Source: Solirubrobacterales bacterium (GTDB taxonomy: Bacteria > Actinomycetota > Thermoleophilia > Solirubrobacterales > Solirubrobacteraceae). Taken from it: a stretch of 35,541 bases of DNA. The notes below the pieces were generated by a model that was not told the DNA's origin, made no database searches, and saw only the letters and a program-made list of their open reading frames with translations. The position numbers were made by a program, and so were the translations under genes. This document shows positions 1,102 through 26,642 of this stretch, piece after piece. Position 1 is the first letter of the stretch, and the number at the start of each line of letters is the position of its first letter. The DNA lies in contig JAOPZW010000114.1 in the NCBI GenBank assembly GCA_025963905.1, positions 1 through 35,541 on the forward strand, in the 5' to 3' direction.

Positions 1102-1746
1102 ATGGCCGTGCTGTCCGCTCCGATCCGCTACGCCGCATCAGCGCATCCGGGCTGCGCGTTCTGCGAGCGCATCGCGCGCGCCATCGAGCCGTCGCTGTTG
1201 CCCGACCCCGCCTTCGTCACCTGGGCCTCGGTCGGTGCTCTGGTCGACGGGCATGTTCTCGTCATCCCGCGCGCCCACGAGCTGAACGCCGCCGCAGGAG
1301 CGCCTGATCCGGCTTCCCGGCTTGCCCCGTATGTCGACGCCGTCACCGGCATGCTCGAGCGCAACTACGGGCCCACGTGCCTCTTCGAGCACGGGCCGGT
1401 GAGCCCCGGGACGGCACCCGGGTGCTCGATCGACCATGCGCACCTCCATCTTGTCCCGTGGTCCGGATCCCTCGTCGTGCTCGCCATGGCCGCGCATCCG
1501 GAGCTGTTGTGGCGCGAGTACTCGGGCGGGCTCGTCAACGGACTCCCGCCGGCCCCCGACACGTCCTACCTCCTGGTGCAGGATTCCGACGGCCGAGGCG
1601 CCGTGGGGTCCGGTGACACGATCCCGAGCCAAGCGCTCCGGAGGGTCATCGCGCGCGAGCTCGGGCGAACAGAGGAATGGGATTGGAAGACGCACGCGCA
1701 GTTGGAGACCCAGATGAGCACGATCCGGACCCTCACGGCGACCTAG
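1102..1746 (+). CDS. HIT (histidine triad) family hydrolase
   Basis: CAFCERI..., DGHVLVIPRAHELNAA, and the catalytic motif HAHLHLVP. Confidence 0.85.
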   Translation: MAVLSAPIRYAASAHPGCAFCERIARAIEPSLLPDPAFVTWASVGALVDGHVLVIPRAHELNAAAGAPDPASRLAPYVDAVTGMLERNYGPTCLFEHGPVSPGTAPGCSIDHAHLHLVPWSGSLVVLAMAAHPELLWREYSGGLVNGLPPAPDTSYLLVQDSDGRGAVGSGDTIPSQALRRVIARELGRTEEWDWKTHAQLETQMSTIRTLTAT

Positions 1747-2354
1747 CGCCCGCCGACGCCTCAGCCGGGGCGGAGCCACATTCCCGAGGGGAGTTCGCCT
1801 CGGTCCTCGGTACCTGGGACGATCGTGCGCCGTTCCAATGGGAGTCTCGGTGGCCCGCCAAGGCCAGGGTGCAAATGGGGATCGAGCTCTGCTACCTCGC
1901 GGTCCTGTTCGCTGCCTGCCCCGTTGGCCTCTTCTGTCTCAGCACCGGCAAGCTCGATGTCGCGTTGGACATTACGGCGGCCGAGAGCCGCTCCCTCGCC
2001 CTCTACGGCGACGCCTGGCTGGGCGGATTGCTGGGCGGCTGTCTGTTCTCGATGAAGTGGCTCTACCACTCGATCGCGCGCGGCAAGTGGCACCTAGACC
2101 GGCGCGCGTGGCGCTTCCTGACGCCGCTGGTCTCCGCGGGCCTGGCGTTCGGCACGATGGCCCTGTTCATCTCCGGAGCGCTGCCGCTCTTTAGCGAGCG
2201 CATCACCGGCACCTTGCCTGGTGTCACCGGCGTGAGCTTCCTGGTCGGCTACTTCTCCGACGACACGGTGGCCGCCCTCGCCGGGGCCGCGACCAAGCTG
2301 CTACGAGGAGCAGACGAGAAGGAGCCAGATGTCAGCGATCGCGGTCGGAACTAA
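1677..2354 (+). CDS. Multi-pass membrane protein of unknown function
   Basis: Hydrophobic segments IELCYLAVLFAACPVGLFCL, LGGLLGGCLFSMKWL, FLTPLVSAGLAFGTMALFISGALPLF, VTGVSFLVGYF; overlaps both neighbouring genes. Confidence 0.7.
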   Translation: MGLEDARAVGDPDEHDPDPHGDLAPADASAGAEPHSRGEFASVLGTWDDRAPFQWESRWPAKARVQMGIELCYLAVLFAACPVGLFCLSTGKLDVALDITAAESRSLALYGDAWLGGLLGGCLFSMKWLYHSIARGKWHLDRRAWRFLTPLVSAGLAFGTMALFISGALPLFSERITGTLPGVTGVSFLVGYFSDDTVAALAGAATKLLRGADEKEPDVSDRGRN

Positions 2355-4743
2355 GGCCGAGGGACTCCTCGGGCTGCCGGCCGGGTGGACACCGCCGTTC
2401 ATGGTGGTCAACCTGACGACCGCCGTCGACCTCCAGCACGGCCGACCGATCAATGACGGTCTTCCGGGCCGGCTCAGGGCCTTTGACGAAGGACCCCAGC
2501 TTGAACGGCTGTTCGCCGAGGCACCCGACGGAGTGCTCGTTCGTAGTAGCGCGCTCGACGAAGGCATGAGCTCCCGCGGGCTTTTCAAGTCGCTGCACGT
2601 CGGTTTCCCGAGCTTCGTCACGGTCGCAGAAGCCATGTCCGACATCTGGCAGCACGCCGCCACCGACCAGGAGGAGCCGGGGCCCATCCCGCTCATCGTC
2701 CAGCGCTTCGTGCGGCCCCAGCTGCTCGGTCACCTGTCCAACGAGATCCGCCTGCGCAAGGACCGGCGCGACTGGACCGTGGAGATTCAGGGGGAGACCA
2801 CCGTCGCCCACGCCGGCGGCATGCGCGCGCTCAAGAAGGACCGCGTGCCGCTGACCGACGTGGATCCGGCTTGCGCGTCCAGCGACGACCTCATCGGCGT
2901 CCTGCGGCGGGTCGCCGGCGCTTTCACGGAGGTGGGTCGCCGTCATCACCTCGAGTGGGTGTGGGATGGCGGTCGCCTCTGGATCGTGCAGCACGACGAG
3001 GTCGCCGAGCTCCGCTCGTCCGAGCCGCGCGCCATCGGCTGGGCGCAGGAGTTCCCCGCGCTTAAGTGCTTCCGGCCGCCCGGCCAAGGCGACGTGGATT
3101 TCCCGAAGGTGCGTTGCATCGCCGAGTACGCCGCCGCCGGTCTTCCGCACCAGGACCTGCGGCTGCTCACCGATCCCGGGCTGTTCACCCTGCTGCGTGC
3201 CGGCGGCGCCGTCCCGGCGCTCGAGAGCGATCTCTCGGTCCTGGCCGAGCGCAAGGCGGTCATCCGCACCGACGTCAGGCGCGGCGAGGACCGCGACTTC
3301 GACGTCCTGCGGGCGCGCACCGACGCGGGCTGCTCGGCCGGCGAGCTGCTCGGCTTCCTCCGTCAGACGCTCGATGACCTGACGCAGGCCGAGATCCCGC
3401 CCGGCGACGTGGTGTTCCTCGTGCACCCCTTCGTCCCAGCCGACGCCTCCGCGTGGAGCCTGGCGGCGCCCAGCACCAGCCAGGTGCGCGTCGACGCGAC
3501 GTACGGACTCCCTGACGGGCTTTTGTACTACCCGCATGACTCCTATGTCGTCGACACGCGGTCGGCGTCCGTGCGGCAGCGGCTGCGCTGCAAGAGCCGG
3601 ATCCTCACCTCGGACACCGTGGGTCAATGGCACGACGAGCCGCTGGGGAGCCCCTGGAACTGGCGCGCGACGCTCAGCGACGTGGAGGCTCGGCTGATCG
3701 CCCGGATGAGCAAGCAGCTGGCCGATCACCTCGGGCGCGCGGTCGAGATCATGTTCCTCGTCCGCACGCACACCCTGGACCGTGGCAGCTACGTGCTGCC
3801 GTGGGTCCACCGCGACGGCAGTCATCGTCCCGCTAGGCCTGCGGCGACGACCTCGTTCTTCCCCTCGCAGGAAGCGCTAGTCCGCAACTTCACCGATCTG
3901 CGCAAGCTGTCGGAGACGATGACCGACGCGGCGTCGTCCGCCGGCCGCGTCCTTGTTCAGCTCCGGCCGGAGGCCAGCGTCCTCCATGACTCGACATTCC
4001 TCGACGAGCTCGTGGCCGTGTGCGCCGCGAAGCATTGCTCGATCGAGCTCGAGGGAAGCACGCTGTCGCACATCTACTACGAGCTGGTTCGGGCCGGGCT
4101 GCACGTCGAGGTCCAGGACCCCATTTCGACCTCGGGTGCCGAGCCCGTGTCGTTCGGCAAGCTCGTGCGCGACCTCATCCCCTCGAACATCGCCGCCCGA
4201 GGCGAACACGTCGTGAGCTACCAGGCCTCCGGAGACGAGCTGCAGTCCCTGCTGCGCGCAAAGGTGGTCGAGGAGGCGTTCGAGATCGCGCGCGCCCGGT
4301 CGAGCGATGAGCTCTTGGAGGAGATCGGCGACGCGCTCGACGTCCTCGCGTCGCTATGTACGCTCACCGGCACCGACCTGGCGACCGTGAGCGAATGGGC
4401 CGAGCAGAAGCGCCGGACCCGCGGTGGCTTCAACATGGGCCAGGTCCTCGTCGAGACCCGGGAGCCCACGCTCGAGGAGGCGACGGCCGGCGACCCTCCG
4501 CGCTACCCGGTGACCGAGGACGTGCGCCTGCAAGTCGAGCGCCGCCAGTCGGAGTTCCCGGAGACCGTCGTCGTCGGCGACCAGGACGCCCGCATCCCGT
4601 ACGAGGTCCAGCTCTCGCGGCCCGACGGTATCGCCGTGAGCATCGACGGCATGGAGTTCGAGCTCGAGTTCCGCACCGACGGCGCGGTCGTCCGCCGGGC
4701 GGTTCCGACTGAGCACCCCGACCAGCTGGAGCTCGGCTTCTAG
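2329..4743 (+). CDS. PEP-synthase/PPDK N-terminal-like domain fused to a C-terminal MazG-like/PRA-PH-like nucleotide pyrophosphohydrolase
   Basis: N-terminal region has VLVRSSALDEGMSSRGLFKSLHVGF...LIVQRFV; C-terminal KLVRDLIPSNIAARGEHVVSYQ...LLRAKVVEEAFEIARARSSDELLEEIGDALDVLASL...EQKRRTRGGF. Confidence 0.75.
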   Translation: MSAIAVGTKAEGLLGLPAGWTPPFMVVNLTTAVDLQHGRPINDGLPGRLRAFDEGPQLERLFAEAPDGVLVRSSALDEGMSSRGLFKSLHVGFPSFVTVAEAMSDIWQHAATDQEEPGPIPLIVQRFVRPQLLGHLSNEIRLRKDRRDWTVEIQGETTVAHAGGMRALKKDRVPLTDVDPACASSDDLIGVLRRVAGAFTEVGRRHHLEWVWDGGRLWIVQHDEVAELRSSEPRAIGWAQEFPALKCFRPPGQGDVDFPKVRCIAEYAAAGLPHQDLRLLTDPGLFTLLRAGGAVPALESDLSVLAERKAVIRTDVRRGEDRDFDVLRARTDAGCSAGELLGFLRQTLDDLTQAEIPPGDVVFLVHPFVPADASAWSLAAPSTSQVRVDATYGLPDGLLYYPHDSYVVDTRSASVRQRLRCKSRILTSDTVGQWHDEPLGSPWNWRATLSDVEARLIARMSKQLADHLGRAVEIMFLVRTHTLDRGSYVLPWVHRDGSHRPARPAATTSFFPSQEALVRNFTDLRKLSETMTDAASSAGRVLVQLRPEASVLHDSTFLDELVAVCAAKHCSIELEGSTLSHIYYELVRAGLHVEVQDPISTSGAEPVSFGKLVRDLIPSNIAARGEHVVSYQASGDELQSLLRAKVVEEAFEIARARSSDELLEEIGDALDVLASLCTLTGTDLATVSEWAEQKRRTRGGFNMGQVLVETREPTLEEATAGDPPRYPVTEDVRLQVERRQSEFPETVVVGDQDARIPYEVQLSRPDGIAVSIDGMEFELEFRTDGAVVRRAVPTEHPDQLELGF

Positions 4744-5533: not shown

Positions 5534-8500
5534 GTGTCGAAGCTCGAGGATCTCCAGCCCGGCCTGCGTCTCGCTGGCGTGATTCCCGGGCAGAACGTCG
5601 CCGTCATCGCCGTGCAGCCGCACGGACCCGATGCGATCGAGCTCACGTACAAGACTGCCGAGGGCGATCTCGGCCAGCGCGTCCTCGGTCGCGACGCCGA
5701 GGAGAAGCTCGCGATCGCCCACGCCGAGGCACGCCCCCTCGACGCTGTCGCCGCCGACTTCAAGCTCGTCGCCGAGTGCCAGCGGATCAAGCTCGCCGGA
5801 CTGTCGGACCCGATGCTCGCGGTCACGACGTCAGACATCCAGCCGTTGCCCCACCAGCTGCGTGCCGTCTACGGCGAGCTGCTCCCGCGCACGCCCCTGC
5901 GGTTCCTCCTTGCCGACGACCCGGGCGCCGGCAAGACGATCATGGCCGGGCTCTACATCAAGGAGCTCATCCTCAGGGAGGACGTCAAGCGTTGCCTGAT
6001 CGTCGCCCCCGGCGGCCTCGTTGACCAGTGGCAGGACGAGCTGTACCTGAAGTTCGGGCTCGCCTTCGAGATCTTCACGCCGCAGCTGAGCGAGACCGTG
6101 TTCGGCGCCTCGGCCTTCGAGCAGCACCCGTTGCTGATCGCGCGCATGGATCAGCTCGCGCGCAACGAGGACCTGGTGGCCGAGCTGGCCAAGTCCGAGT
6201 GGGACCTCGTGGTCGTCGATGAGGCCCACCGCATGGGCGCCCATTACTTCGGCGGCAAGCTCGAGAAGACCAAGCGGTTCCAGCTCGGCGAGCTGCTCGG
6301 CGACGTCGCGCGTCATCTGCTGCTCATGACCGCGACCCCGCACAGCGGCAAGGAGGAGGACTTCCAGCTCTTCCTCACGCTGTTGGACCGCGACCGTTTC
6401 GAGGGCAAGTACCAGGCGAAGATCCATGCCGCCGACACCTCAGGGGTGATGCGGCGGATGGTCAAGGAGGATCTGCTCACGTTCGACGGCAAGCCGCTGT
6501 TCACCGAGCGGATCGCCGAGACCGTCCCCTACGAGCTCACCGAGCTCGAGCAGGACCTGTACGAGCAGGTCACGACCTACGTCCGCGAGGGGATGAACCG
6601 CGCCGAGAAGCTCGACGGCAAGCGCCGCAACACGGTCGGCTTCGCGCTCACCGTCCTGCAGCGCAGGCTGGCATCCAGCCCGGAGGCGATCTACCGCTCC
6701 CTCGAGCGCCGCGCCGCTCGCCTCGAGCGCCGCAAGCAGGAGATCCTCGACGGCGCGGCGATCGGTGAGCCGAGGGCCGCAGACGTCGTGGGCGACCTCA
6801 ACGAGTTCGATGACGACGAGTTCTCGGCCGAGGAGCTTGAGAGCATCGAGGATGAGCTCGTTGACGCGGCGACTGCGGCGCGCACCGTCGAGGAGCTCGA
6901 TGCCGAGCTGCTCGATCTGCGCGACCTCATCAAGGCCGCGGCGCGGGTGCGTGCATCGGACACAGACCGCAAGTGGTCAGAGCTGCGCACGATTCTCGAG
7001 GACAACACGCTCGCCGCTCCTGGTTCCGGCGTCGAGCGGCGCAAGCTCATCGTCTTCACCGAGCATCGCGACACTCTGGAGTACCTCGCGCGCCGGATCG
7101 GGTCGCTCCTCGGCCGGCCCGAGGCGGTCAAGGCGATCCACGGCGGCGTGCGTCGCGCCCAGCGCCGCCAGATCACCGAGGAGTTCACGCACAACCCGGC
7201 CTGCCAGGTTCTGCTCGCCACCGACGCCGCCGGGGAGGGCCTCAACCTCCAGGTCGCCCACCTGATGGTCAACTACGACCTTCCGTGGAACCCGAACCGG
7301 ATCGAGCAGCGCTTCGGCCGGATCCACCGCATCGGCCAGCGCGAGGTCTGCCGCCTGTGGAACCTCGTTGCCGACAACACCCGCGAGGGTGAGGTCTTCG
7401 CCCGGCTGCTGCTGAAGATCGAAGAGCAGCGAAAGGCCTATGGCGGCAAGGTGTTCGACGTGCTCGGGACGGCGTTCAGCGAGACGCCGCTGCGTACGCT
7501 GCTCATCGACGCGATCCGCTATGGCGAACTCCCTGAGACCAAGGCGAAGATGGAGAAGGTCATCGACGCTGGGGTGGCTCGCGGTATCGAGGAGCTGCTA
7601 GTCGAGCGCGCGCTTGCGACCGACGCGATGCAGCACGCGGACATCGCGCAGCTCCGCGCGCTGATGGACGAGGCGCGGGCCCGACGCCTGCAGCCTCACT
7701 ACATCGAAGGCGCGTTTCGAACGGCGTTCACGCGCCTGGGCGGCAAGATCCGCCGCCGCGAGCAGGGCCGCTTCGAGATCACCCACGTCCCGGCGCAGCT
7801 GCGAACGATCGGGCGAGGCCCGATCGCCAGCCGGTATGAGCGCGTCACATTCGACATCGAGCATGTGCTTGATGAGTCCGGCGCTCGCGCCGAGCTGCTC
7901 GCCCCCGGCCACCCTCTGCACAACACCGTCACCGACGAGACCGTCGCTCGTTGGCACGAGACGCTCGAACGCGGCACCGTCCTCGTCTCGCCGACGGTGC
8001 AGGAGCCGCGCCTGCTCGTCGGCGTCATCGAGGAGATCGCCGACGCGACCGAGACCGCCGTCGCGCGCCGCTTCAGCTACGCGTTCATCGACGAGCACGG
8101 CAGCGTCGAGGCGGCGGGGCCGGCACCGTACCTCGATTGCGTCGCGGCCCCGTTGACAAATGAGGTCATCGCGGCCCGGGCGCTGCCTTGGCTCGCGGAA
8201 GCCGAGGAGCGGGCGGCGAGCTGGATCATCGCCAACCAGGTCCCCGCGTTCCTGAGCGAGGTCAAGCTGCGCCGCGAGGCCGAGTTGCACCGCGTACGCG
8301 ACCAGGTCGGGCGTCGCCTGGACCAGGAGAGCAACCGCCTCATCCTCGAGGCGATGGTCGCCCAGGAGCAGGAGCAGGCCGGCAAGAAGCCCAAGGAGAG
8401 CCACACGAGCCTGATGCTGAAGTCCGCCGATCTCGAGGGCCGCCGCACCGCGCGGCTTGCGCTGCTCGACCGCCAGCTTCAGATGCAGGCCAAGCCCCCG

Positions 8501-8971
8501 CGGGTCGTCACGGCTGCGCTCGTGCTGCCACTTGCGACCGTGGAGACCCAGATCCCCGACGACGCGCCGATGCACGCGGTCGAGACGAAGGAGGTCGAGC
8601 GCCGCGGCGTCGACCTCGTCCTGGCGACCGAGCGCATGCTCGGCCGCAGCCCGGTCGAGCAGGCGTTCAACAACCCAGGTTTCGATGTCCTCTCCGTCCG
8701 CGACGGCGAGGATCCGATCCGCATCGAGGTCAAGGCCCGCATCGCCGGCGCCGAGGACTTCTTCGTCACCCACAACGAGGTGCTCACCGCGCTCAACAGC
8801 GCGCCGCGGTACCGGCTGGCGCTCGTGCGCGTCGACCCGCGCGGCCCCGAGCACGACGAGGTCCGCTACCTCGAGAACCCGTTCGGCCGCTTCGACGCCG
8901 GCGACTTCGACGCGACCGGCCACCGCGGCAAGTGGGACACGACCTGGGCGCGCGGCAGGGAGCCGTTTTGA
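5534..8971 (+). CDS. SNF2-family DEAD/DEAH helicase with C-terminal DUF3883-like domain (DrmD-like)
   Basis: GTG start; LRFLLADDPGAGKTIMAGLYIKEL, VVVDEAHRMG, LLLMTATPHSGKEEDF, VLLATDAAGEGLNLQVAHLMVNYDLPWNPNRIEQRFGRIHRIGQ; C-terminal NPGFDVLSVRDGEDPIRIEVKAR. Confidence 0.92.
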   Translation: MSKLEDLQPGLRLAGVIPGQNVAVIAVQPHGPDAIELTYKTAEGDLGQRVLGRDAEEKLAIAHAEARPLDAVAADFKLVAECQRIKLAGLSDPMLAVTTSDIQPLPHQLRAVYGELLPRTPLRFLLADDPGAGKTIMAGLYIKELILREDVKRCLIVAPGGLVDQWQDELYLKFGLAFEIFTPQLSETVFGASAFEQHPLLIARMDQLARNEDLVAELAKSEWDLVVVDEAHRMGAHYFGGKLEKTKRFQLGELLGDVARHLLLMTATPHSGKEEDFQLFLTLLDRDRFEGKYQAKIHAADTSGVMRRMVKEDLLTFDGKPLFTERIAETVPYELTELEQDLYEQVTTYVREGMNRAEKLDGKRRNTVGFALTVLQRRLASSPEAIYRSLERRAARLERRKQEILDGAAIGEPRAADVVGDLNEFDDDEFSAEELESIEDELVDAATAARTVEELDAELLDLRDLIKAAARVRASDTDRKWSELRTILEDNTLAAPGSGVERRKLIVFTEHRDTLEYLARRIGSLLGRPEAVKAIHGGVRRAQRRQITEEFTHNPACQVLLATDAAGEGLNLQVAHLMVNYDLPWNPNRIEQRFGRIHRIGQREVCRLWNLVADNTREGEVFARLLLKIEEQRKAYGGKVFDVLGTAFSETPLRTLLIDAIRYGELPETKAKMEKVIDAGVARGIEELLVERALATDAMQHADIAQLRALMDEARARRLQPHYIEGAFRTAFTRLGGKIRRREQGRFEITHVPAQLRTIGRGPIASRYERVTFDIEHVLDESGARAELLAPGHPLHNTVTDETVARWHETLERGTVLVSPTVQEPRLLVGVIEEIADATETAVARRFSYAFIDEHGSVEAAGPAPYLDCVAAPLTNEVIAARALPWLAEAEERAASWIIANQVPAFLSEVKLRREAELHRVRDQVGRRLDQESNRLILEAMVAQEQEQAGKKPKESHTSLMLKSADLEGRRTARLALLDRQLQMQAKPPRVVTAALVLPLATVETQIPDDAPMHAVETKEVERRGVDLVLATERMLGRSPVEQAFNNPGFDVLSVRDGEDPIRIEVKARIAGAEDFFVTHNEVLTALNSAPRYRLALVRVDPRGPEHDEVRYLENPFGRFDAGDFDATGHRGKWDTTWARGREPF

Positions 8972-8975
8972 TCCG

Positions 8976-11825
<2,850 letters not shown>

Positions 11826-11828
11826 CCG

Positions 11829-15154
<3,326 letters not shown>

Positions 15155-15158
<4 letters not shown>

Positions 15159-15751
15159 CGCACCGCGGCAGCGTCCGCGGGCTCGCCTCGCGCTCGCCGA
15201 CAGGCCGACGCGATGGGTCCTCCTTGGCCCAACTTCGGCGGGTGGAGCCTGTCCGCCCCGACTGCCAAGCTGCTCTGTCGCTCCCGATCCACATGCTCAG
15301 ACAACTCCTGATCTCAGCTCTGGCAATTGGAACGCTGCTATCGACGGCCGCGCCCGCCAACGGTCAGAACAAACCGCGAACAAACGTCGACCAACGCGTA
15401 GCTCGGCTCGAGGCGCAGGTTGTAAAGCTGCAGCACGACGTCGACGTTGAGCGGGCGGCTCGGGTGCAGCTCGGGGACGACTCGCACTACTACTTCGGGT
15501 CCGTCGCAATCATCGTCGGTATCGCCACGTTGCTCATCGCGATCGTCGCGCTGGGTGCGACCTTCGCGGGTTACCGCCTCGTTCGCGACTACGTGACGAA
15601 AGAGTTTGATAGGCGCGCCGGAGACGCCTTCGACAACCAGGTCGGCCCGCTCATCGATGGGAAGCTTGACGCGGCGACTGAGAAGTTCGACGCAGAGCTG
15701 GCGAAGATGGTCGCGGCAGCTCGTCAGGCTATGGGGCAGAACCCAGCTTGA
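15155..15751 (+). CDS. Small membrane-anchored coiled-coil protein (signal/TM, then TM); alternative start at 15293
   Basis: ATGA stop-start overlap with the DUF499 gene; MLRQLLISALAIGTLLSTAAPANG, coiled-coil DQRVARLEAQVVKLQHDVDVERAARVQL, TM VAIIVGIATLLIAIVALGATFAGYRLV. Confidence 0.7.
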
Positions 15752-17646
15752 CTCCGGTGAATCCAGAGCTCGCCGACCTGGCCGCGTACGCGATCTTCGA
15801 TGTCGATCCGAACGTTCGGAGCGCGAACAAGCCGCTCCACTTCTTCATGGTCTCCGTGGCCCTGTTCGACGCGCTCGATGGCCTGACACCCGACGAGCTT
15901 CACGATGCGGTCTGCGCTCAGATGATCGTCGACCACCACCTGTCCGCTGATGAGGTGGACGCCGCGGTCAAGCTCGGGGTTGGTCCCGGCCTGATACTCC
16001 TTGGCGACGACGGAAAGCTCCGGTTGAGCGCAGTGCGGCGAGCGCAGCTCGAACAAGCGCGGACCCGCATCGGCGAGCAGCGAGAGGCGTTCCATGGCCA
16101 CATGGCGAAAGCTGTTGCGGAGGCCGGCGTGAGCCCGGTCGACGAGGGCGCTCTTCGGGATCACCTCGAGCATGGGCTACAGTCGCTGTTCGGAGAACAG
16201 TCCGCTGTGATCGCTGCGGCTTACGGGCCGGATGGTATTGGGCTTGACTCTGCCCTGAGCGGCGTCAACGCTCGTGACCGACTTCGGGAAATTGGGTCGG
16301 CGCTCGCCCCAGGCGGCGCTGGCCCCAACAAGCTCCAGCGCGAGCTCATCCACACCGGCCTGGAGAAGGGCCTGTTGACGCTCCCGAAGATGGCGACAGC
16401 ATACCTCGCGTCGCTCTACCACAGGACTGTTGCCGCCGCGCTTCTCGCGCAAGACCCAACCATTCGCAAGGTCAAGCACCAACTTGCGGGACGGCGCGTC
16501 GCGTACCTCGACGCGAACGTCCTGATGGCGTGGATGTTTGAGGCAGACCCGCTTCACGAGGTTGCCGAGCAAGCGATCGAATTGACCAAGGTAGTCGGCG
16601 CGACTCTTCGCGTCACGACCCACGCGCTCGACGAACTGGCGGTGCAGATTCGTGAGGCGGATCGCTTCATGACGCAGTACAAGGGTGAGCGTCGGCTGCT
16701 CTCGTATGCCGACGACGTCGTGGTTCGCAGCTTTCGAATGGCGCAGCGCGAACACACCGGCCTTGTCTGGTCGGCGTTCGTCGCTGCGTTCGCTCCTCCC
16801 GATACCTGGATCACACACCACGGCGTCGAGGTTGACGCCGACGGTACAGAGGCCCTCGAAGCGGACGAGAGACTTCAAAAATTCGAGGCGGCCGTTCGTC
16901 GCCGGCGCCCGCAGGCCGCCACGGTGGTGATCCGGACCGACGCATGCAACATGTTGCATGTCTTGAAGGCGAGGGACGGCATCCCCGCCGACAGCATGGG
17001 TAACCGTGCATGGCTCGTCACGAATGACGGCTCCCTCGAACTTGTGGAACGTGACATGGCAGCCGCCGGTGATCTCGCAGGACCCGTGTCGCGTAGCTCG
17101 CGGGTTTGGTGCGACCTTCTCGGGCCGTGCGTGCCCCCAGATGCCGAGCGCCTCGCTGGATACGTGACTCGGCTCGTTCAGTCGGAGTTTGGCCTGTTGG
17201 CGGAGGATCCGACCTTCGTCAATAAGGCGTTCCTGAATGTCCTCAGCCAAAGTCGGTTCAAGATCGCGGACGTCCTCGAGGATGATCGGATCGCGGGCCA
17301 GGTCTTGGCGCGCCTGCAAGCAGACGACGAACTCAGGCGCCTGATCGGCGACGCCGAGCCCGACTCGGAGGAGTGGAACGAGGAGCTCGCTGCGGCCGTG
17401 CAGCGCACGCTTGCCGAACTCGCGGTCGCCACCGTCGATGAGGCAGAGCTCAATGCGGCACTTGTCGCGCAAGCAAAGGCGGAACAGGCGGCCGAAGCGG
17501 AGCGCAAGTCCCGCATCGACGCTGTGCGAGAGAATGCGGACCTTAAGCGCGTCGTCCGAGAGGCTACAGACCGCGCCGAACGGGCAGAGGAAGAGCTGGC
17601 GGCAAAGGCGTCGCGCCGGTTTCTCGCGCGTTTGTTCGGCCGGTGA
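15748..17646 (+). CDS. Large PIN-like domain protein with C-terminal coiled coil
   Basis: RRVAYLDANVLMAWMF...VTTHALDELAVQIREADRF...AWLVTNDGSLELVERD (spaced acidic residues typical of PIN nucleases); C-terminal AKAEQAAEAERKSRIDAVRENADLKRVVREATDRAERAEEEL. Confidence 0.65.
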   Translation: MTPVNPELADLAAYAIFDVDPNVRSANKPLHFFMVSVALFDALDGLTPDELHDAVCAQMIVDHHLSADEVDAAVKLGVGPGLILLGDDGKLRLSAVRRAQLEQARTRIGEQREAFHGHMAKAVAEAGVSPVDEGALRDHLEHGLQSLFGEQSAVIAAAYGPDGIGLDSALSGVNARDRLREIGSALAPGGAGPNKLQRELIHTGLEKGLLTLPKMATAYLASLYHRTVAAALLAQDPTIRKVKHQLAGRRVAYLDANVLMAWMFEADPLHEVAEQAIELTKVVGATLRVTTHALDELAVQIREADRFMTQYKGERRLLSYADDVVVRSFRMAQREHTGLVWSAFVAAFAPPDTWITHHGVEVDADGTEALEADERLQKFEAAVRRRRPQAATVVIRTDACNMLHVLKARDGIPADSMGNRAWLVTNDGSLELVERDMAAAGDLAGPVSRSSRVWCDLLGPCVPPDAERLAGYVTRLVQSEFGLLAEDPTFVNKAFLNVLSQSRFKIADVLEDDRIAGQVLARLQADDELRRLIGDAEPDSEEWNEELAAAVQRTLAELAVATVDEAELNAALVAQAKAEQAAEAERKSRIDAVRENADLKRVVREATDRAERAEEELAAKASRRFLARLFGR

Positions 17647-17911: not shown

Positions 17912-19837
17912 TCAGTTGCCCCACAGACGCCTGCGAAGCCCCGAGGCGCGTGCGACGGGCCGCTTTACCGCGGTCGCGATGGCTTCCGCACTCCCGACGA
18001 CGACCAGGCGCTTGCGCGCGCGTGTGGCCGCCGTGTACAGCAGCTCCCTCGTGAGGACTCGCGAGGTGGAAGCCGGCAGCAGCACCGCGGCGGTTTCGAA
18101 CTGCGAGCCCTGGCTCTTGTGGATGGTCATGGCGTACACCGTCTCGACCGACCCGAGCCTGGTGGGGCTGAACTCCACGACCTCGCCACGCCGCTCGAAC
18201 GCCGCGCTCGCGCGTTCAGGGGTGCTCTGTACGACGACCCCGGTGTCGCCGTTGTAGAGCTGGAGCTCGTAGTCGTTGTCGGTGACGAGGAGGGGGCGGC
18301 CGATGTACCAGCGGTCGTCGGTGGTGAAGTCGTTGAGCGCGGTGGCGAGCCAGCCCTCGATGCGGGCGGTCCAGGTGGTGACGCCGTAGGGGCCTCGGCG
18401 GTGGGCGCAGAGGAGGCGGTAGGACGCCAGGGCTGCGATTGCCTCTGAGGCGGCTCCGGCGCGGGCGGCTTCCATGACGGCTCGGGCGGCTGTGACGGCG
18501 CCGTCGCGGACCGTCGCGAGCGCGGCGTCGGTCGCTTCCTCCGCGACGTCGATCGGGATCCAGAGGACGTCGTGGGGTGAGTCCTCGAGGGCCTTGAGTG
18601 CCGCGTCGGAGTCGCCGTGGTGGATGGCTGACGCGAGGCGGGCGATGCCGGTGCCGAAGCGGTGGACGCGGTCGAGGACGATGATGCCGTCGCCGATCCG
18701 GGCCTCGCCGGGCGGGTCGTTCGCGGTGATCTCGTGGCCGGTCGCTTCGGCGAGGCGTAGGCGCGCTGGGCGCGTCATGAGCGGTCGATCGGTGGCGGGG
18801 CCGACGATGTCGCCGAGCACGGCGCCGGCCTCGATCGAGGCGAGCTGTGCGGGGTCGCCGACGAGGATGAGGCGGGCGTCGGGGCGGACGGCCTCGGCGA
18901 GCCGGGCCATCAGGGAGAGCGAGACCATGGAGGTCTCGTCGACGATCACGACGTCGTGGGGGAGGCGCTGGCCGCGGTGGTGGCGAAAGCGGCTGTGGCT
19001 GCCCGGGCGCCAGCCGAGGAGCCGGTGGAGCGTCGAGGCCTGGAGCGCGAGCAGGCCCGCGCGGATGGGCTCGGTGACCGGGAGTTTGGCTGCCTCCTCG
19101 TGGACTGCCTCCTCGAGGCGGGCGGCGGCCTTGCCGGTCGGGGCGGCCAGGGCGACCAGCGGCGGCGGCGAACCGCTGTGAGCGGCCTGCTCGGCCAAAA
19201 GGGCGACGATGCGCGCGACCGTCGTCGTCTTGCCCGTGCCGGGCCCGCCGGCGACGACGGCGAAGCGCCGCAGCACGGCGCTCGCGGCGGCCAGGCACTG
19301 GCGGCTCGCCGTCTCGCCTTCGAACATGCGCGCGAGGCCGTCGGCGAGCACCCCCATCGAGACGCCGGCGGTCGGCTCGTCGCTGATCGCCAGGAGGTCG
19401 GTGGCGACCCGGCGCTCCTCCTGCCAGTAGCGGTCGAGGTAGAGCCAGCTGCCGACGAGGCGGAGGGGGCGGGCGGTGCCCGCTTCAACGTCGTCCTCTC
19501 CGACGGCCACCAGCTCGCTCGCGGCCAGCTGTCGCACCCAGCCGTCGGCCTCCGGCCAGGGCAGCTCGGAGAGGTCGACCGGCTCCTCGGTGTCGACCGA
19601 CGCCGTGTCCCGGATCGTCGCGAGGTCGACGTAGACGTGCCCGATCCGGGGGGCGCGGACCGCGAGGGCGGCCGCGAGGACGACGCGCTCGTCCGGCTCG
19701 TCGACGAGCGTCGCCAGGCGCTGCGCGACCTGGACGTCGGCGGCCGCGAGCACGCCGATGTCGTTGAACTCCCGGAGCAGTTCGGGCGCGCGCAGGGCGC
19801 GGCGCGCGTCGAACGGATCGACGGCGAGCAGCGTCAC
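17912..19837 (-). CDS. recD: RecBCD exonuclease V alpha subunit RecD
   Basis: FAVVAGGPGTGKTTTVARIVALL, VVIVDETSMVSLSLMARLAEAVRPDARLILVGDPAQLASIEAGAVLGD; 4-bp overlap with recB. Confidence 0.93.
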   Translation of the reverse strand: MTLLAVDPFDARRALRAPELLREFNDIGVLAAADVQVAQRLATLVDEPDERVVLAAALAVRAPRIGHVYVDLATIRDTASVDTEEPVDLSELPWPEADGWVRQLAASELVAVGEDDVEAGTARPLRLVGSWLYLDRYWQEERRVATDLLAISDEPTAGVSMGVLADGLARMFEGETASRQCLAAASAVLRRFAVVAGGPGTGKTTTVARIVALLAEQAAHSGSPPPLVALAAPTGKAAARLEEAVHEEAAKLPVTEPIRAGLLALQASTLHRLLGWRPGSHSRFRHHRGQRLPHDVVIVDETSMVSLSLMARLAEAVRPDARLILVGDPAQLASIEAGAVLGDIVGPATDRPLMTRPARLRLAEATGHEITANDPPGEARIGDGIIVLDRVHRFGTGIARLASAIHHGDSDAALKALEDSPHDVLWIPIDVAEEATDAALATVRDGAVTAARAVMEAARAGAASEAIAALASYRLLCAHRRGPYGVTTWTARIEGWLATALNDFTTDDRWYIGRPLLVTDNDYELQLYNGDTGVVVQSTPERASAAFERRGEVVEFSPTRLGSVETVYAMTIHKSQGSQFETAAVLLPASTSRVLTRELLYTAATRARKRLVVVGSAEAIATAVKRPVARASGLRRRLWGN

Positions 19838-22800
19838 GTCGCCCTCCTTCCGTCGAGGATGTCGCTGAGTCCTTCGACCAGCGCTTTCGGCGGCCGCCAG
19901 GCGAACACGCCGCACGGCGCGCCGTCGATCGTCGGGGTCTCGGCGCCGAGCATGCCGCGCACGAACAGGTAGAGGACGCCGGCGAGGTTGCGCTCGGGGT
20001 CGTAGCCGGGCAGGCGCCAGCGCAGGTAGCGGTGCAGCGCGGCCGTGTACAGCAGGGCCTGCAGGCCGTAGTGGCCGCGATCCATCTCGGCGGCGAGCGC
20101 GGCGGGGCGGTGGTGCCAGGCCGTCAGCGCCTCGCCTGGCGCGGCGAGCCAGTTCGTCTTGTAATCGACGATCGCAAACCGTGCTCCCGGCAGGCGCAGC
20201 ACGGCGTCGATGCTGCCCGTGAGGTATCCGCGGACGGTGCGGCGCAGCGCCGGGTCTTCGAGCCGAGCGGCGTAACCGGCGAGCGGATCGCCCGCCGGCA
20301 GCGTGTCGCGCAGGAGCCGCGCGATCGCCGTGAGCGTGACGTCGCCGCTGGGGTCGTCGCCGCCGGCCAGGGGCAGCTCGAACTCGAGCTCGTCGAGTCG
20401 GTCGGCGCGCTCGATGTCGCGCAGCCGGAGCCCGCCGGCCAGCGGGCCGAGGGGCGTCTCGATCGTCGCGGCCAGGCCGGCGGCCACGATTGCCGGATCG
20501 CCGATCTCGACGCGGCGGCGGGCGAGCGCGAGCTCGACTTGGGTCGTGACCTCGCCCGGGAGGTCGGGGGCGGCGAAGTCGGTCGCCTCGAAGACCTGGT
20601 GCACGAACGTCCCGACGCTGAGGCCGACCGGCATGTCGGCGAGCAGTGACGGCATCGTCAGCGACGCCTCGACCGGCGCCACCTCGCTCGCGGCGGCGGG
20701 CGCCTGCGGCTCCGCGGGCTCGTCGACGACCTCAGCCGCCTCGGGCTCGCTCGCGACCCGGTGCTCGTACGCGCCGGCGGCGATGTCGCTGTAGGAGGTC
20801 CGGCGCCAGCGCCAGTCGAGGCTGCGGTCGAAGAGCGCGGCGCCGAGCTCCGCCGGCTCGGGGGCCGGCGGCGTCCAGCTCGCCGGCAGGCCGAGCGTCG
20901 ACCGTTCGACGGCGATGCGCCCGGGCGCTTCGGCGGCGAGGGCCTCGAAGCGCGCGACGGCGGTGGCGTCGTCCGGCGTCGACATCCCCACGGGAGCGAC
21001 CGTGCCCTCGGCGTCGCGCGCGAAGAGCAGCCGCCCGAGCGGCGAGTGGCGGCTGTCCTTGGAGCCCGCCCACCAGATGACCGCCTGGTGCTGCGCGCGC
21101 GTCAGGGCGACGTAGGCCAGGCGCAGGTCCTCGCCGCGCTGCTCGATGAGCGACTGCTGCTTGTGGCGCCGGTAGTCGGGGCCCGCGAGCGCGACATCGA
21201 TGGTGCGCGCATCGTCGGCCTCGGGGTCATGGAAGAAGACGGGGGTGTCGCCGGACGGGATGTATCCGGGCTCCCACAGGAACGGCAGGTACACGATCGG
21301 GAACTCGAGGCCCTTGCTGCGGTGGATCGTCAGCACCTGGACCGCCTCGGCGTCGGACTCGAGCCGGCGGCTGCGCTCCTCGTCGCCGGTGTCGTCGCCG
21401 GCCTCGGCGATGCGGCGCCGCAGCCACGCCGTGAGGGCCGTGGTGCCGAGCTGCTCGCTGGATGCCGCGGCGTGCAGGAGCTGGCCGACGTGGCGCAGGT
21501 CGGTCAGCGACCGCTCGCCTTCGGCGGTGGCCAGGATGCGCTGCGGCAGGCCCTCGACGAGCGTGATCGTCTCCATCAGCGACGCGACGCCCTTGACGCG
21601 CAGCACGCGCGCCCAGTCGTGCAGGCGCCGGTGCACGCCCTCCCACTCCTCGTCCTCGGCGCCGGCGACCCGCTCGGTGGACCAGCCGAGGAAGCAGGTC
21701 AGCGCGGCGGAACGTGCTCGCGTCGGGGAGGTGGGCCGCTCGATCGCTTCGAGCAGGCGCAGCCACTCGCCGGCCGGGGTGGTGCCGAAGACGCTGCCGG
21801 CGCCGTTGATGACCGCCGGGATCCCGGCCGCATCGAGCGCGTCACGAACGAGCGCCGCATTGCGGTTGGTGGGCACGAGCACGGCGACGTGACCGGGGCT
21901 CACGTGCTCGCGGGCGATCGGCACGCCGGACTCGTCGCGGCGCTCGATCTCCGCGGCGGACGAGAGGAGGGCGACGAGATCGGCGGCGAGGTCCTCGGCG
22001 ACGTGCTCGCGCGCGCTCGGCTTGCCGGCGAAGCCGCCGGGGGTCAGCGCGATCGATGGCTGGTCTCGGTGGACGACCCTGATCCGCACGGGCGCTGCGC
22101 TCGGTGCTCCGCTCAGCCGCGGGGTCTGGTTCGCGTCCGCCGCGCGGACGCGGCGGTAGACGATCCCCTCGTGGCCGAGCCTGGCGCCGCCGAACATGGC
22201 GTCGTAGGCGTCGATGAGCCCCTGGTCGCTGCGCCAGTTGACCTCGAGGGTCGCCTGCGCGCCCGCGGATCTCGCGGCCTCGAGGTACGCGTAGACGTCG
22301 GCGCCGCGGAAGGCGTAGATCGCCTGCTTCGGGTCGCCGATCAGGATCAGGGTCGCGCCGCCGTCCCCGAAGGCCCGCCGGACGATGTCCCACTGCACCG
22401 GGTCGGTGTCCTGGAACTCGTCCACGAGGACGACCGCGTAGCGCGCGCGCAGGCGCGCCGCGGCCGCATCGCCGCCCTCGCCGGTGAGCGTCTCGTCCAG
22501 CCGGGTCAGCAGGTCGTCGTAGGTCATGACCGCCATCCGGCGCTTGCGCAACTCGAGCTCGTCGCGCGCGGCCTCGGCGAGGCGCCGGCGCATCTCGGGG
22601 ACGTCGCCGACTGCGGGGGCGATGGCCGTCGTCGGGTTCTCGATAGCCACCCGCGCGACGTCGGCCGCCTCCCGGCGCGTGAACGGCGGGTCGCCGCCGC
22701 GGTGGAACCGGCGCACGTAGAGGTCGTCGACGACCTGCTCGACGAGGTCCCTGACGTCCTCCACGAACGCGGTCTCGCGCTCGACGTCGCCCGCGACCCC

Positions 22801-23220
22801 GAGGCCGGCGAGCACCTCCTGGCAGAAGCCGTGGGTGGTGGCGATCGTGGCGGCGTCGAAGTCGGCGAGCGCGCGTACCAGGCGGGCATGCCGGAGCCGC
22901 ACCTCGTCCTCGGCGCCGTCGGCCAGCAGCCGGACGAGGTCGTCGCTGCCGTCCATCGGGCCACCGGCGAGCGCGTGGGCGAGTCCCTGCTCGACGCCGA
23001 CGAGGCGCTCGCGCACGCGCTCGCGCAGCTCGCCGGTCGCCATGCGCGTGAACGTCACGAGCAGCAGCCGGTCGAGAGGGGTGCCCTCCGCGACGTAGCG
23101 CGCCGCGAGCGCGGCGATCGTGTACGTCTTGCCGGTCCCCGCGCTCGCCTCCAGCACGGTGACGCCCGTCGGCAGCGGTCCACGGAGGTCGAACGGCAGG
23201 ATGGCGATCGGCTGGGTCAC
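19834..23220 (-). CDS. recB: RecBCD helicase-nuclease beta subunit RecB
   Basis: VTVLEASAGTGKTYTIAALAARYVAEG, VVLVDEFQDTDPVQWDIVRRAFG, C-terminal nuclease motif FAIVDYKTNWL. Confidence 0.94.
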   Translation of the reverse strand: MTQPIAILPFDLRGPLPTGVTVLEASAGTGKTYTIAALAARYVAEGTPLDRLLLVTFTRMATGELRERVRERLVGVEQGLAHALAGGPMDGSDDLVRLLADGAEDEVRLRHARLVRALADFDAATIATTHGFCQEVLAGLGVAGDVERETAFVEDVRDLVEQVVDDLYVRRFHRGGDPPFTRREAADVARVAIENPTTAIAPAVGDVPEMRRRLAEAARDELELRKRRMAVMTYDDLLTRLDETLTGEGGDAAAARLRARYAVVLVDEFQDTDPVQWDIVRRAFGDGGATLILIGDPKQAIYAFRGADVYAYLEAARSAGAQATLEVNWRSDQGLIDAYDAMFGGARLGHEGIVYRRVRAADANQTPRLSGAPSAAPVRIRVVHRDQPSIALTPGGFAGKPSAREHVAEDLAADLVALLSSAAEIERRDESGVPIAREHVSPGHVAVLVPTNRNAALVRDALDAAGIPAVINGAGSVFGTTPAGEWLRLLEAIERPTSPTRARSAALTCFLGWSTERVAGAEDEEWEGVHRRLHDWARVLRVKGVASLMETITLVEGLPQRILATAEGERSLTDLRHVGQLLHAAASSEQLGTTALTAWLRRRIAEAGDDTGDEERSRRLESDAEAVQVLTIHRSKGLEFPIVYLPFLWEPGYIPSGDTPVFFHDPEADDARTIDVALAGPDYRRHKQQSLIEQRGEDLRLAYVALTRAQHQAVIWWAGSKDSRHSPLGRLLFARDAEGTVAPVGMSTPDDATAVARFEALAAEAPGRIAVERSTLGLPASWTPPAPEPAELGAALFDRSLDWRWRRTSYSDIAAGAYEHRVASEPEAAEVVDEPAEPQAPAAASEVAPVEASLTMPSLLADMPVGLSVGTFVHQVFEATDFAAPDLPGEVTTQVELALARRRVEIGDPAIVAAGLAATIETPLGPLAGGLRLRDIERADRLDELEFELPLAGGDDPSGDVTLTAIARLLRDTLPAGDPLAGYAARLEDPALRRTVRGYLTGSIDAVLRLPGARFAIVDYKTNWLAAPGEALTAWHHRPAALAAEMDRGHYGLQALLYTAALHRYLRWRLPGYDPERNLAGVLYLFVRGMLGAETPTIDGAPCGVFAWRPPKALVEGLSDILDGRRAT

Positions 23221-26200
23221 CGCAGCTCGATCTCCTCGCAGCCGAGCAGGCCGTCCCACATCCGCCGCGCGCAGCGGCCGAACCGGGTCGTCTCGGCGAC
23301 GTCCCAGCCGTCGCCGTACTCGTCGGGGTGCGGCGGCTCGTCGAGCAGTTCCTCAAGCGTCCGCACCCCGCCGAGCACCAGCTGGTGCTCGGGCTCCTTG
23401 TCCTCCTTGTCGTAGTTCCATTCCGAGGCCCACGCCTTGCGCGCGGCGGCGACCGCATCGCCGCCCGCTGCGGCCGCCTCCGCGTAGGCCGCCGAGGCGG
23501 CGCAGGAGAGTGGCAGCGGCTCCCGCATCCCGCGGTCATAGAGATCGATCAGCGCGGCGAGATGGCCCAGAGCGGCCTCACGGCGGCCGCCGGCGTCGTC
23601 GCCAAGCGGCCCGAGGCGGGCGATCGCGACGCTCGCGTTGCCGGGACCGCGGCCGATCGTCACCGCCGTAAATCGCCGCTCCGGGTGTGCAGCCGTCAGC
23701 GCGAGCAGCCGCACCCAAGCGGCAGCGCGATGCTTGGCAGCGAGCCGCGAGTAGGTGACCGTTCGCACGAGGTCGCCCGCGACCCCGGGCACCGTCCCCG
23801 TCAGCGAGCGGCCGTCGGGAAGGCGGACGCGGACGTCGACCGAGCCGGGCGCGGCGTCTCCCTGCAGCAGGGCCTCGGCGGCTTCGACGATCAGCTCGGC
23901 GATCGGGAAGACGCCGTCGACCACGGGTTGTCCGAGCAGCCCCGGAGGAAGCGAGCCGCGAGCGATCTCCGCGAGGATCGCCGTGCGGCCCTCGACGCCG
24001 GCGAGCCGCGCTTCGACCAGCCGCTGGCCGACCGCCCACTTGGCGAGACCGTCGAGGTCGACGGGCAGGTCGTCCTCGACCTCCTCGAAGTAGTCGCCGA
24101 CGCTGATCCCGAGCCGCTGACGGAGGAATGCGCGGACCGGATGCTGGGCGAAGCGGACGAGATCCTCGACCTCGACCAGCTTGGTCTCCCTCGCCGGCAG
24201 CGGCGCCGCGAGGAACGGTCCGGGCTCCGCGCGCGGACCCGCGAGGGCGCGCGCCCCCTCGAGCGTCACGGTGTCGAAGCTCCACGTCGTGTCGGGGACG
24301 AGCGCCCCGTCCTCGAAGTTGCGTGGGTCGAACGGCTGCAACGGGTGGCGCACGACGACCTGCTCGCGCGCGGCGCGATCCTCGGCGCGCACGGTGGCGT
24401 CGACGACGTCGAGCAGCTCGCCGACGGGCACCGCCGGCGGGCGCGGGGCGTTGGTCCGCTCGTCGTTGCCCGTGTAGGTGACGATCAGCCGGTCCTGCGC
24501 TGCCAGCAGCGCGTCGAGCAGCAGCTGGCGGTCCTCGATGCGCGCGTCGCGGTCCCCGATGTGGGGGTCGTCGAGCAGGAGGTCGTCGCCGTCGCGCGAG
24601 CCCTTGCGCGGGAAGACGCCGTCGTCGAGGCCGAGCAGGCAGACGACGCGATGCGGCACCGACCGCATCGGGACGAGCGTGCAGATCGTCAGGTGCCCGG
24701 TGCGGAAGTTCGCGCGCGTCGGGCGGCCCTGCAGGCGGCCCGCCAGCAGGGCGCGCAGCTCGGGGAGCGCGATCTCCGTCGGGTTGACCGCATCGTCGAC
24801 GGTCGCCTCCGCGACGACGTCGGCGAGCACCCGCTGCAGCTCCGTCCGCTGCCACGCGTCCCTCTCCGAGGTGGCGGTGACCGAATCGGCGGCGACCGTG
24901 ATCGCGTCCGCCCAGGCGTCGATCCGCTTCGCGGTGCTCAACACGTCAACAGCCGTCCCGACCCGGTCGACGAACTCGGCGAAGCGCCCGGCGAGGTCGA
25001 TCGCACCGCTCTCGACGTCGTCGAGCGGCAGGACCCCGGCGAACAGCCGCTGCTCGTCCTCGGTCATCGTGACGCCCAGGAGCACTCGGTCGAGACCGAA
25101 GCGCCAGGTACCGGCGGGAAGGCCGTCGAGCTTGAAGGGCGCGCGGTGGGCCGCGTCGAGGCCCCAGCGGATCCCGCTTTCGGCGACCCAATCGTGGAGC
25201 CGGGTGAGGTCCTCGTCATCGAAGCGGAAGCGCCGGCGGACGGGCTCGCGGTCGGCGAGGTCGAGCAGCTGAGAGGCGGTCAGCCGCTCCGAGGCGAGGT
25301 CGATCAGCTGCGCCGCCACGCCGAGCACCGGGTTCGTCTGGCGCAGCGCGCGGTCGGCGAGCCGGACCTTCAGGTCGACCGGCCGGACGTCGGCGGGCAG
25401 CGTGTCGAGCTGCTCGCCCTCGGGCGCCTCACCCGCGCTGAAGGTCGCGTGGATGAGCGGAGCGAACGTCTCGATGTCGGGGCACATCACGATGACGTCG
25501 CGCGGCTCGAGCGTGGGGTCCTCCTGGAGCAGGTGCAGGATCGCGTCGCGCACGACCTCGACCTGACGGCCGCGACCGTGGCAGGCGTGGACCTGGAGGC
25601 TCTCGTCGCCCGGGTCGAGCGCCGGGCGGCCGTCCGGGGCGCGGTTCTCCCTGATGCCGGCCTGGATCCGGGCCAGCAGCGTGTCGCCGCGATGCTCGAC
25701 GGGGTGATGGTGGTCGACGGCGCCGGGGTCGGCCAGCGCGAGCTGCATCTCGCGCGCGTCCTGTCCCCACGATGCCAGCAGGCGATGCTGCGCGAGATCC
25801 GCGGTGAGGTCGCGCTGGCGCCGGACGACGCGCGCCGCCGGCTCGATCGCCGCGGCGATCCGGTCCCAGAGCGCGGGGGAGGGGTGCAGGAGGAACAGGT
25901 GCACGTCCCGGCCGGCGGCAAGCGCGCGGAGCACCTGGAGCCTCCCCGCCGGAAGGCGCGTCAGGCCGAAGAGCGAGAGGCGTCGCGGCAGGTCGACCAG
26001 AGCGGGCTGCTCGCGGAGGCGCGCGCAGGCCTCCTCGAGGCGCTCCGCCGGACTGGGCTGCGCGACCCGCTCGCGGAGTCGCCGCCACAGCTCGGCCTGC
26101 CAGACCGCACCAGGCGCCAGCGCCTCCGCGGAGCCGTCGACGTCCTGGCCGTCCGCCCACGCGCGCACCATCCCGGGCCGGTGGAGCGCGTAGCCGTCGA

Positions 26201-26642
26201 ACAGCCCCGCCAGGTGCCGGATCGTGCTGAACCGCCGCGCCTGGCGGATCTTGTCCCCGCCGTCCGCCGCGCCGCCCAGATGGACCGCCAGGCTGTGCAG
26301 CCAGGGCTCGTCGATGGATTGGTCGACGACCTCCAGCAGCGGCCAGACGACTCGCTCGGGTCGCCACCGATCCTCCTCGGCGTCGATCCCCACCGCAGCC
26401 GCGACGGCGTCTTCGACGAGGCGCCGCGGGAACGGGAACTCGACGTTCGCGCAGACGCCGTCGCCATGCCCCGCGGTCGCGCCCAGGCGAGCGGACAGCC
26501 TCTGCGTGAGCCAGCGCTCCATGCCCCTGGTCGGAACGGCGATCACCTCGGGGGCGAACGGGTCGTCCAACGGCTCGGCGAGCAGCGCACCGAGGGCCTC
26601 GATGAGGCCATCAGCTCGTTCAGCTCGATGGACGTGAAGCAC
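23217..26642 (-). CDS. recC: RecBCD gamma subunit RecC
   Basis: VLHVHRAERADGLIEALGALLAEPLDDPFAPEVIAVPTRGMERWLTQRLSARLG (RecC N-terminus); PHRVVCLLGLDDGVFPRK; overlaps recB by 4 bp. Confidence 0.93.
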   Translation of the reverse strand: MLHVHRAERADGLIEALGALLAEPLDDPFAPEVIAVPTRGMERWLTQRLSARLGATAGHGDGVCANVEFPFPRRLVEDAVAAAVGIDAEEDRWRPERVVWPLLEVVDQSIDEPWLHSLAVHLGGAADGGDKIRQARRFSTIRHLAGLFDGYALHRPGMVRAWADGQDVDGSAEALAPGAVWQAELWRRLRERVAQPSPAERLEEACARLREQPALVDLPRRLSLFGLTRLPAGRLQVLRALAAGRDVHLFLLHPSPALWDRIAAAIEPAARVVRRQRDLTADLAQHRLLASWGQDAREMQLALADPGAVDHHHPVEHRGDTLLARIQAGIRENRAPDGRPALDPGDESLQVHACHGRGRQVEVVRDAILHLLQEDPTLEPRDVIVMCPDIETFAPLIHATFSAGEAPEGEQLDTLPADVRPVDLKVRLADRALRQTNPVLGVAAQLIDLASERLTASQLLDLADREPVRRRFRFDDEDLTRLHDWVAESGIRWGLDAAHRAPFKLDGLPAGTWRFGLDRVLLGVTMTEDEQRLFAGVLPLDDVESGAIDLAGRFAEFVDRVGTAVDVLSTAKRIDAWADAITVAADSVTATSERDAWQRTELQRVLADVVAEATVDDAVNPTEIALPELRALLAGRLQGRPTRANFRTGHLTICTLVPMRSVPHRVVCLLGLDDGVFPRKGSRDGDDLLLDDPHIGDRDARIEDRQLLLDALLAAQDRLIVTYTGNDERTNAPRPPAVPVGELLDVVDATVRAEDRAAREQVVVRHPLQPFDPRNFEDGALVPDTTWSFDTVTLEGARALAGPRAEPGPFLAAPLPARETKLVEVEDLVRFAQHPVRAFLRQRLGISVGDYFEEVEDDLPVDLDGLAKWAVGQRLVEARLAGVEGRTAILAEIARGSLPPGLLGQPVVDGVFPIAELIVEAAEALLQGDAAPGSVDVRVRLPDGRSLTGTVPGVAGDLVRTVTYSRLAAKHRAAAWVRLLALTAAHPERRFTAVTIGRGPGNASVAIARLGPLGDDAGGRREAALGHLAALIDLYDRGMREPLPLSCAASAAYAEAAAAGGDAVAAARKAWASEWNYDKEDKEPEHQLVLGGVRTLEELLDEPPHPDEYGDGWDVAETTRFGRCARRMWDGLLGCEEIELR

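Follow-up and report, generated by a model that had tools for sequence, protein, structure and literature searches.

Near the left end of a 35,541-nucleotide (nt) stretch of DNA from a Solirubrobacterales bacterium (the window; contig C412, JAOPZW010000114.1 of assembly GCA_025963905.1), three genes form a compact set of 3.6 kb. They encode a HIT-family protein, a membrane protein and a fusion protein of 804 amino acids (aa), in which dikinase-like modules are combined with a MazG domain (Table 1). The set is referred to here as the trio. The host (G000) is represented by a draft genome of 4.71 Mb in 512 contigs, which is 88.6% complete. The first-pass annotation of this DNA, made from the letters alone, had described three overlapping genes, and exactly these reading frames and overlaps were recovered. 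The longer overlap is not due to a mis-called start, since the conservation of the HIT C-terminus extends beyond residue 180 and the membrane-protein gene offers no in-frame ATG, GTG or TTG from about 1683 up to the part that is conserved. The ATG of the third gene (2329) is preceded, four bases upstream, by AAGGAG.

Table 1. Features of the trio and of its surroundings in the window
Feature	Position	Strand	Remarks
HIT-family nucleotidyl hydrolase/transferase, CWF19-like subfamily	1102..1746	+	214 aa
Histidine triad HAHLH (H112, H114, H116)	1435..1449	+	invariant in 8 loci
Overlap of HIT gene and membrane-protein gene	1677..1746	+	70 nt (64-70 nt, start ATG 1677 or TTG 1683)
Membrane protein	1677..2354	+	225 aa
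Overlap of membrane-protein gene and 804-aa gene	2329..2354	+	26 nt
804-aa fusion protein	2329..4743	+	two PPDK_N-like ATP-grasp modules, histidine-motif region, MazG (COG4997), C-terminal region
First PPDK_N-like module	2329..3024	+	residues 1-232; K9, R72, E209, Q221 invariant in 8 loci
Second PPDK_N-like module	3076..3768	+	residues ~250-480; K260, R313, D404, K422 invariant
GSTLSH motif (G576...H581)	4054..4071	+	His invariant in 8 loci
MazG/COG4997-like NTP pyrophosphohydrolase domain	4147..4473	+	residues 607-715
MazG metal motif E648 E649 xx E652 ... E665 xx D668	4270..4332	+	EExxE-12-ExxD
HmaABC system	5537..15158		HmaA, HmaB, HmaC
Two genes following HmaC	15155..17646		198 aa and 632 aa
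RecD-RecB-RecC set	17912..28070	-	

The product of the first gene carries the HxHxH triad of the HIT superfamily on a HIT fold. Its single-sequence Pfam match to HIT stays below the cut-off, while it matches HIT proteins in the PDB (3imi, E 5e-7) and the profile of its family recovers HIT structures at E 4e-11. The same profile is aligned over nearly its whole length with CWF19-like protein 1 (8ro2_L1, E 2e-9), and the CwfJ_C_1 family of Pfam was matched by 7 of the 10 family members. In this alignment of bacterial proteins with a eukaryotic one, the C-terminal part is covered as well as the HIT domain. These similarities suggest a common ancestry with the CwfJ family, which is associated with the spliceosome. 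Besides the triad, E96-H97-G98, H59 and C108 are invariant in the eight loci compared. The HxHxH motif is common to the window protein and to the CWF19/CwfJ, HinT, MccH and ThsC hydrolases. Unlike these, the window protein belongs to a subfamily of its own, with a conserved C-terminal SQ..RR..A..LG..WDW; members score 174-250 bits, whereas other HIT proteins reach at most 47.

In the 804-aa protein, residues 1-232 and 225-505 both match phosphoenolpyruvate (PEP) synthases in profile-profile comparison (P 2.5e-10 and 1.2e-9; unrelated controls gave P >= 0.1). The Pfam PPDK_N match (residues 384-479, E 3.7e-5) is sub-threshold, with a score of 23.6 against a cut-off of 27. From the full-length AlphaFold model, which was built from three sequences, solely the Foldseek agreement was used, which is backed independently by the profile result: rifampin phosphotransferases (RPH) come first (E 4e-9), followed by PEP synthase and other ATP-grasp enzymes. 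Profile and Foldseek alike thus identify the PPDK_N ATP-grasp domain of RPH and PEP-synthase enzymes. K9, R72, E209 and Q221 of the first module align to PEP-synthase positions that are established as ATP-site residues in the PEP-synthase/PPDK family; the second module does not contain the E...Q pair. Further downstream, residues 570-595 show the pattern GSxLxHxYY, which is similar to GGxxSH, the phosphohistidine motif of PEP synthases. A separate model of residues 504-712 (pLDDT 72) gives the order beta-alpha-beta-motif-alpha-beta. A phosphohistidine swivel domain around H581 is suggested only at the level of the motif. The protein shares the ATP-grasp fold, the ATP-site residues and the downstream histidine motif GSxLxH with RPH and PEP synthase. 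It differs from them by its two tandem PPDK_N-like modules, by the fused MazG domain and by having no recognisable drug or PEP domain.

The MazG domain is related in sequence to COG4997 proteins: about 100 residues align with annotated nucleoside triphosphate (NTP) pyrophosphohydrolases at 38-44% identity (E about 1e-6). The PRA-PH/MazG matches in Pfam are sub-threshold, and the metal motif EExxE(12-28)ExxD is present in an intact form with a spacing of 12, as in the MazG/COG4997 pyrophosphohydrolases. Unlike in these, the domain sits fused behind a dikinase-like enzyme. The membrane protein consists of a soluble N-terminus of about 60 aa followed by 3-4 hydrophobic segments. Its relatives conserve GGLLGG..FSMKWLYH...G.WHLDRR.WR strongly, as well as GYFSD. 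No Pfam or NCBIfam family was matched by the window protein, and one relative showed a weak match to the Bestrophin-like PF14023 (E 0.005).

The first-pass annotation had called a HIT-family protein from HAHLHLVP, a multi-membrane-spanning protein and a MazG-like domain, all of which are borne out by these results. Its PPDK-like N-terminal region holds as to similarity; instead of one such region, however, there are two modules. The structure prediction that it had proposed as a check returned the RPH-like match, albeit from a model of low confidence.

The trio is not peculiar to the window. In the same order, and with genes that abut or overlap, it was found in Agreia sp. PsM10 (L008), in the gammaproteobacterium Candidatus Methylumidiphilus (L009, genome G446), on a plasmid of Caulobacter rhizosphaerae (L014) and in the actinobacterium G911 (L099). 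Together with the window this makes 5 genomes, which represent at least 3 classes. The proteins are only 23-36% identical to those of the window, so the association is old. Pairwise identities of the HIT and dikinase-like proteins are correlated over the eight loci (r = 0.91; 4 of 40,001 relabellings were as high). The same holds over five loci for the membrane protein, both against HIT (r 0.92, 4 of 120 permutations as high) and against the dikinase-like protein (r 0.92, 3 of 120). Such correlated divergence is the mark expected of genes inherited jointly, as read from these identities. Catalytic residues are retained in all eight loci for HIT and for the first ATP-grasp module, and in 6 of the 8 for MazG.

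A second form of the set was found in the host's own family. In three genomes (G027, G035 and G008), HIT and dikinase-like proteins are accompanied by an AAA+ ATPase of 660-820 aa, which replaces the membrane protein. Tight packing of the genes on a single strand is seen in G027 and G035. The MazG motif is intact in G027 and degenerate in G035, and G008 lacks it, so this domain is an accessory and not the indispensable part. The system as a whole is sparse and patchily distributed: it was detected in 4 of 146 genomes of the host's family (each from a different genus), in 1 of 398 of a phylum sample, in 1 of 369 from the class of Candidatus Methylumidiphilus and in 2 of 297 from the order of Agreia. 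Relatives of the 804-aa or HIT protein were absent from the phage collection, and scans of viral contigs with the dikinase and AAA alignments gave no match.

The defence module that had been noted next door is a complete HmaABC system, in which helicase (HmaA), methylase (HmaB) and ATPase (HmaC) follow in a row (PADLOC E 0, 0 and 3e-264). The authors of PADLOC introduced Hma as a candidate system (PMC8565338). It has been reinterpreted as a DUF499-centred, BREX-related system in a paper that cites an experimental report of defence (PMC12839542). It was considered whether the trio could be part of Hma. Hma adjoins the trio in the window, yet none of the other trio loci examined has it as a neighbour, and it is complete as three genes. 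It therefore appears to be a separate unit.

Some of the other copies are accompanied by other defence systems. The trio of G911 lies beside a type III restriction-modification (RM) system, the AAA form of G035 directly follows BREX PglX-PglZ-BrxL, and that of G008 encloses a ThsA-like SIR2 gene. In whole-genome searches, HmaC of the host, PglZ of G035 and the type III Res of G911 each proved to be the sole strong copy of their genome, and none of them is more than about 8 kb away from the system. The chance of finding one such marker within 10 kb is about 0.5% per genome, for markers that were picked after the neighbourhoods had been seen. Recurrent proximity to unrelated defence systems, as expected for a defence-island gene set, is thus observed in a small sample of three genomes. 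Because the neighbouring systems differ between genomes, a role in defence is plausible without recourse to Hma. The earlier proposal of a nucleotide-signal or nucleotide-depletion defence or stress system is thus supported in part, since the BREX, type III RM and SIR2 neighbours make a defence role plausible; depletion, signalling and phage defence as such have no direct support. The check whether the three genes co-localise elsewhere, which had been proposed alongside it, turned out positive in four other genomes.

Taken together, the trio may be a nucleotide-consuming or nucleotide-modifying immune module that is membrane- or AAA-coupled, horizontally spread and associated with defence islands. 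We assign this reading a probability of roughly 0.45. Nucleotide chemistry is proposed because HIT and MazG hydrolases are co-inherited with an enzyme of the ATP-dependent phosphotransferase type, a gating or sensing role of the membrane subunit because it is swapped for an AAA+ ATPase in the second form, and immunity because the set is placed beside several unrelated defence systems and shows a patchy spread. In the order of steps that we infer, invasion would be the trigger and would be perceived by the membrane protein, or by the AAA+ ATPase in the other form, as sensing or gating subunit. The 804-aa protein would most likely act as an ATP-dependent phosphotransferase of the RPH/PEP-synthase class, with the ATP-grasp site in the first module, H581 as possible phosphoryl carrier and a nucleotide or nucleotide-like compound as substrate. 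The fused MazG domain is predicted to convert (d)NTPs to NMP and pyrophosphate. The HIT enzyme may then hydrolyse a nucleotidyl product (phosphoramidate or phosphoanhydride) of the same pathway, either as second step or as off-switch. The nucleotide pool would in this way be altered or drained.

Several observations weigh against this immune reading. The defence proximity is based on few loci, with marker families chosen post hoc, and the Agreia locus is set in a metabolic neighbourhood. The AlphaFold model of the whole 804-aa protein is of poor quality (pLDDT 50), two relatives (G008 and G035) do without an intact MazG, and the swivel domain around H581 was recovered neither by profile (P 0.08) nor, at a significant level, by the fold search with the model of residues 504-712. 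Moreover, HIT, ATP-grasp and MazG proteins are also found in housekeeping and in resistance.

Housekeeping would take the form of nucleotide house-cleaning or salvage, in which the operon clears nucleotides that are damaged or non-canonical and plays no part in immunity. COG4997/MazG and HIT proteins are indeed typical house-cleaning enzymes, and HIT relatives occur near ThyX-like, DHFR and dCTP-deaminase-like (DCD) genes. A housekeeping set would, however, be expected to be commoner than this very sparse one, and the contexts are mobile and defence-rich, so that we consider this explanation rather improbable. For the immune module, too, the recurrence of HIT relatives beside nucleotide enzymes (ThyX-like, PRA-PH/MazG-type and dCTP-deaminase-like) is a favourable point.

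On plasmids, AAA and HIT relatives are found repeatedly in the company of other nucleotide enzymes. In Parabacteroides (L042:6241-10946), a double-length ThyX-like protein, an AAA ATPase, HIT and a stand-alone PRA-PH/MazG-type protein are encoded in a row, beside DHFR. On Streptomyces and Lactococcus plasmids (L040:9441-12737, L041:9441-12741, L043:8781-11488) the HIT subfamily adjoins a cysteine desulfurase/class V aminotransferase. A dCTP-deaminase-like gene lies next to HIT in the Streptomyces plasmids (L040), and an EamA-like transporter gene beside the HIT relative of Lactococcus pUC06C (L043). For the protein of 313 aa that is encoded next to HIT in Streptomyces, a PPDK-like nature was not supported (P 0.13). 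On plasmids of Rhizobium and Burkholderia gladioli (L046:5924-10197, L047:5816-10398), an AAA ATPase, a DUF4406 protein and a 457-aa protein are found in succession. The latter shows a PPDK-like match to the 804-aa family (P 1.6e-5) and a GITSHIA/GLTSHIA motif, and this set is possibly a third form of the same idea.

Some of these relatives bear on small-molecule self-defence, in which the RPH-like enzyme would phosphorylate an antibiotic, HIT would cleave a peptide-nucleotide or nucleoside compound in the manner of MccH, and the membrane protein would aid export. The nearest structural matches are rifampin phosphotransferases, MccH-type HIT hydrolases confer resistance to microcin C (PMC7157772), and HIT relatives are accompanied by the EamA-like transporter in Lactococcus and by DCD and cysteine desulfurase in Streptomyces. 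The architecture speaks otherwise: the second PPDK_N module takes the place of the usual drug-binding region of RPH, the fused MazG would be without an obvious role, and the membrane protein is exchanged for an AAA+ ATPase. The repeated siting by BREX, Hma and type III RM also argues against resistance, which is therefore judged unlikely.

For a HIT protein in defence there is one known precedent, ThsC, which was proposed as off-switch in Thoeris type II (PMC8565338). The window protein is not matched by the PADLOC ThsC model, and only 1 of the 10 family members is (E 0.016). Thoeris type II was rejected for the trio as a whole, in which HIT is partnered by a membrane protein and a dikinase-MazG fusion instead of ThsA/ThsB; a ThsA-like SIR2 gene is nearby at one locus only (G008). 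The ThsC proposal is nevertheless a precedent for a nucleotide-signal system, in which the dikinase-like enzyme would make a phosphorylated or nucleotidylated messenger, HIT would degrade this messenger, and the effector would be the membrane or AAA protein. The layout of enzyme, nucleotide hydrolase and membrane protein fits such a system. Against it stand the absence of a known messenger synthase from the set, the lack of a match to a CARF/SAVED/SLATT-type sensor and the near absence of ThsC matches in the HIT family. A signalling role of this kind has a low probability in our view.

The combination had not been recognised as a named system at first reading, and this assessment stands. PADLOC 2.0 contains no model matching the three proteins at E 0.1, NCBIfam has no model that covers them, Pfam matches are sub-threshold, and in the open-access literature no description was found of an operon of HIT and PPDK-like proteins with MazG or AAA. 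Nicastro et al. reportedly predicted, in 2023, MazG effectors in immune systems, and a MazG domain is also part of the 804-aa protein. A PEP-synthase/RPH-type enzyme as core of a defence system is new as far as checked. It can tentatively be proposed, as a possibility and not as the favoured outcome, that the sets represent an undescribed class of immune system with a PEP-synthase/RPH-type dikinase core and HIT, interchangeable gates (membrane or AAA+), an optional NTP-destroying MazG domain and a nucleotide chemistry new to defence. If the role is immune, PEP-synthase/RPH-type phosphotransferases and CWF19-like HIT hydrolases would be added to the nucleotide-targeting defences, and one enzymatic core would be seen coupled to two different gates. 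The set is compact, its catalytic residues are clear, and both Agreia and a plasmid of Caulobacter offer relatives, which makes the question directly testable.

Further genes were noted around these sets. In the window, two genes follow HmaC, each starting 4 nt inside the end of its predecessor. One product is a coiled-coil membrane protein of 198 aa; in the other, of 632 aa, a PIN-like stretch was recognised by eye. Pfam, PADLOC and NCBIfam gave no convincing match for either. Right after the defence genes, on the minus strand, lies a RecD-RecB-RecC set, which was assigned by reading, without family search. The genome of Candidatus Methylumidiphilus (G446) encodes four HmaC-like DUF499 ATPases, all on contigs other than that of the trio. 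Near the set of G027, an AbiEii-like nucleotidyltransferase pair was recognised by eye at L010:13800-15730, where PADLOC gave no match. The same surroundings include an LmuA-like gene (L010:3283-5886). The HmaC of the window carries a Swt1-like HEPN domain at its N-terminus.

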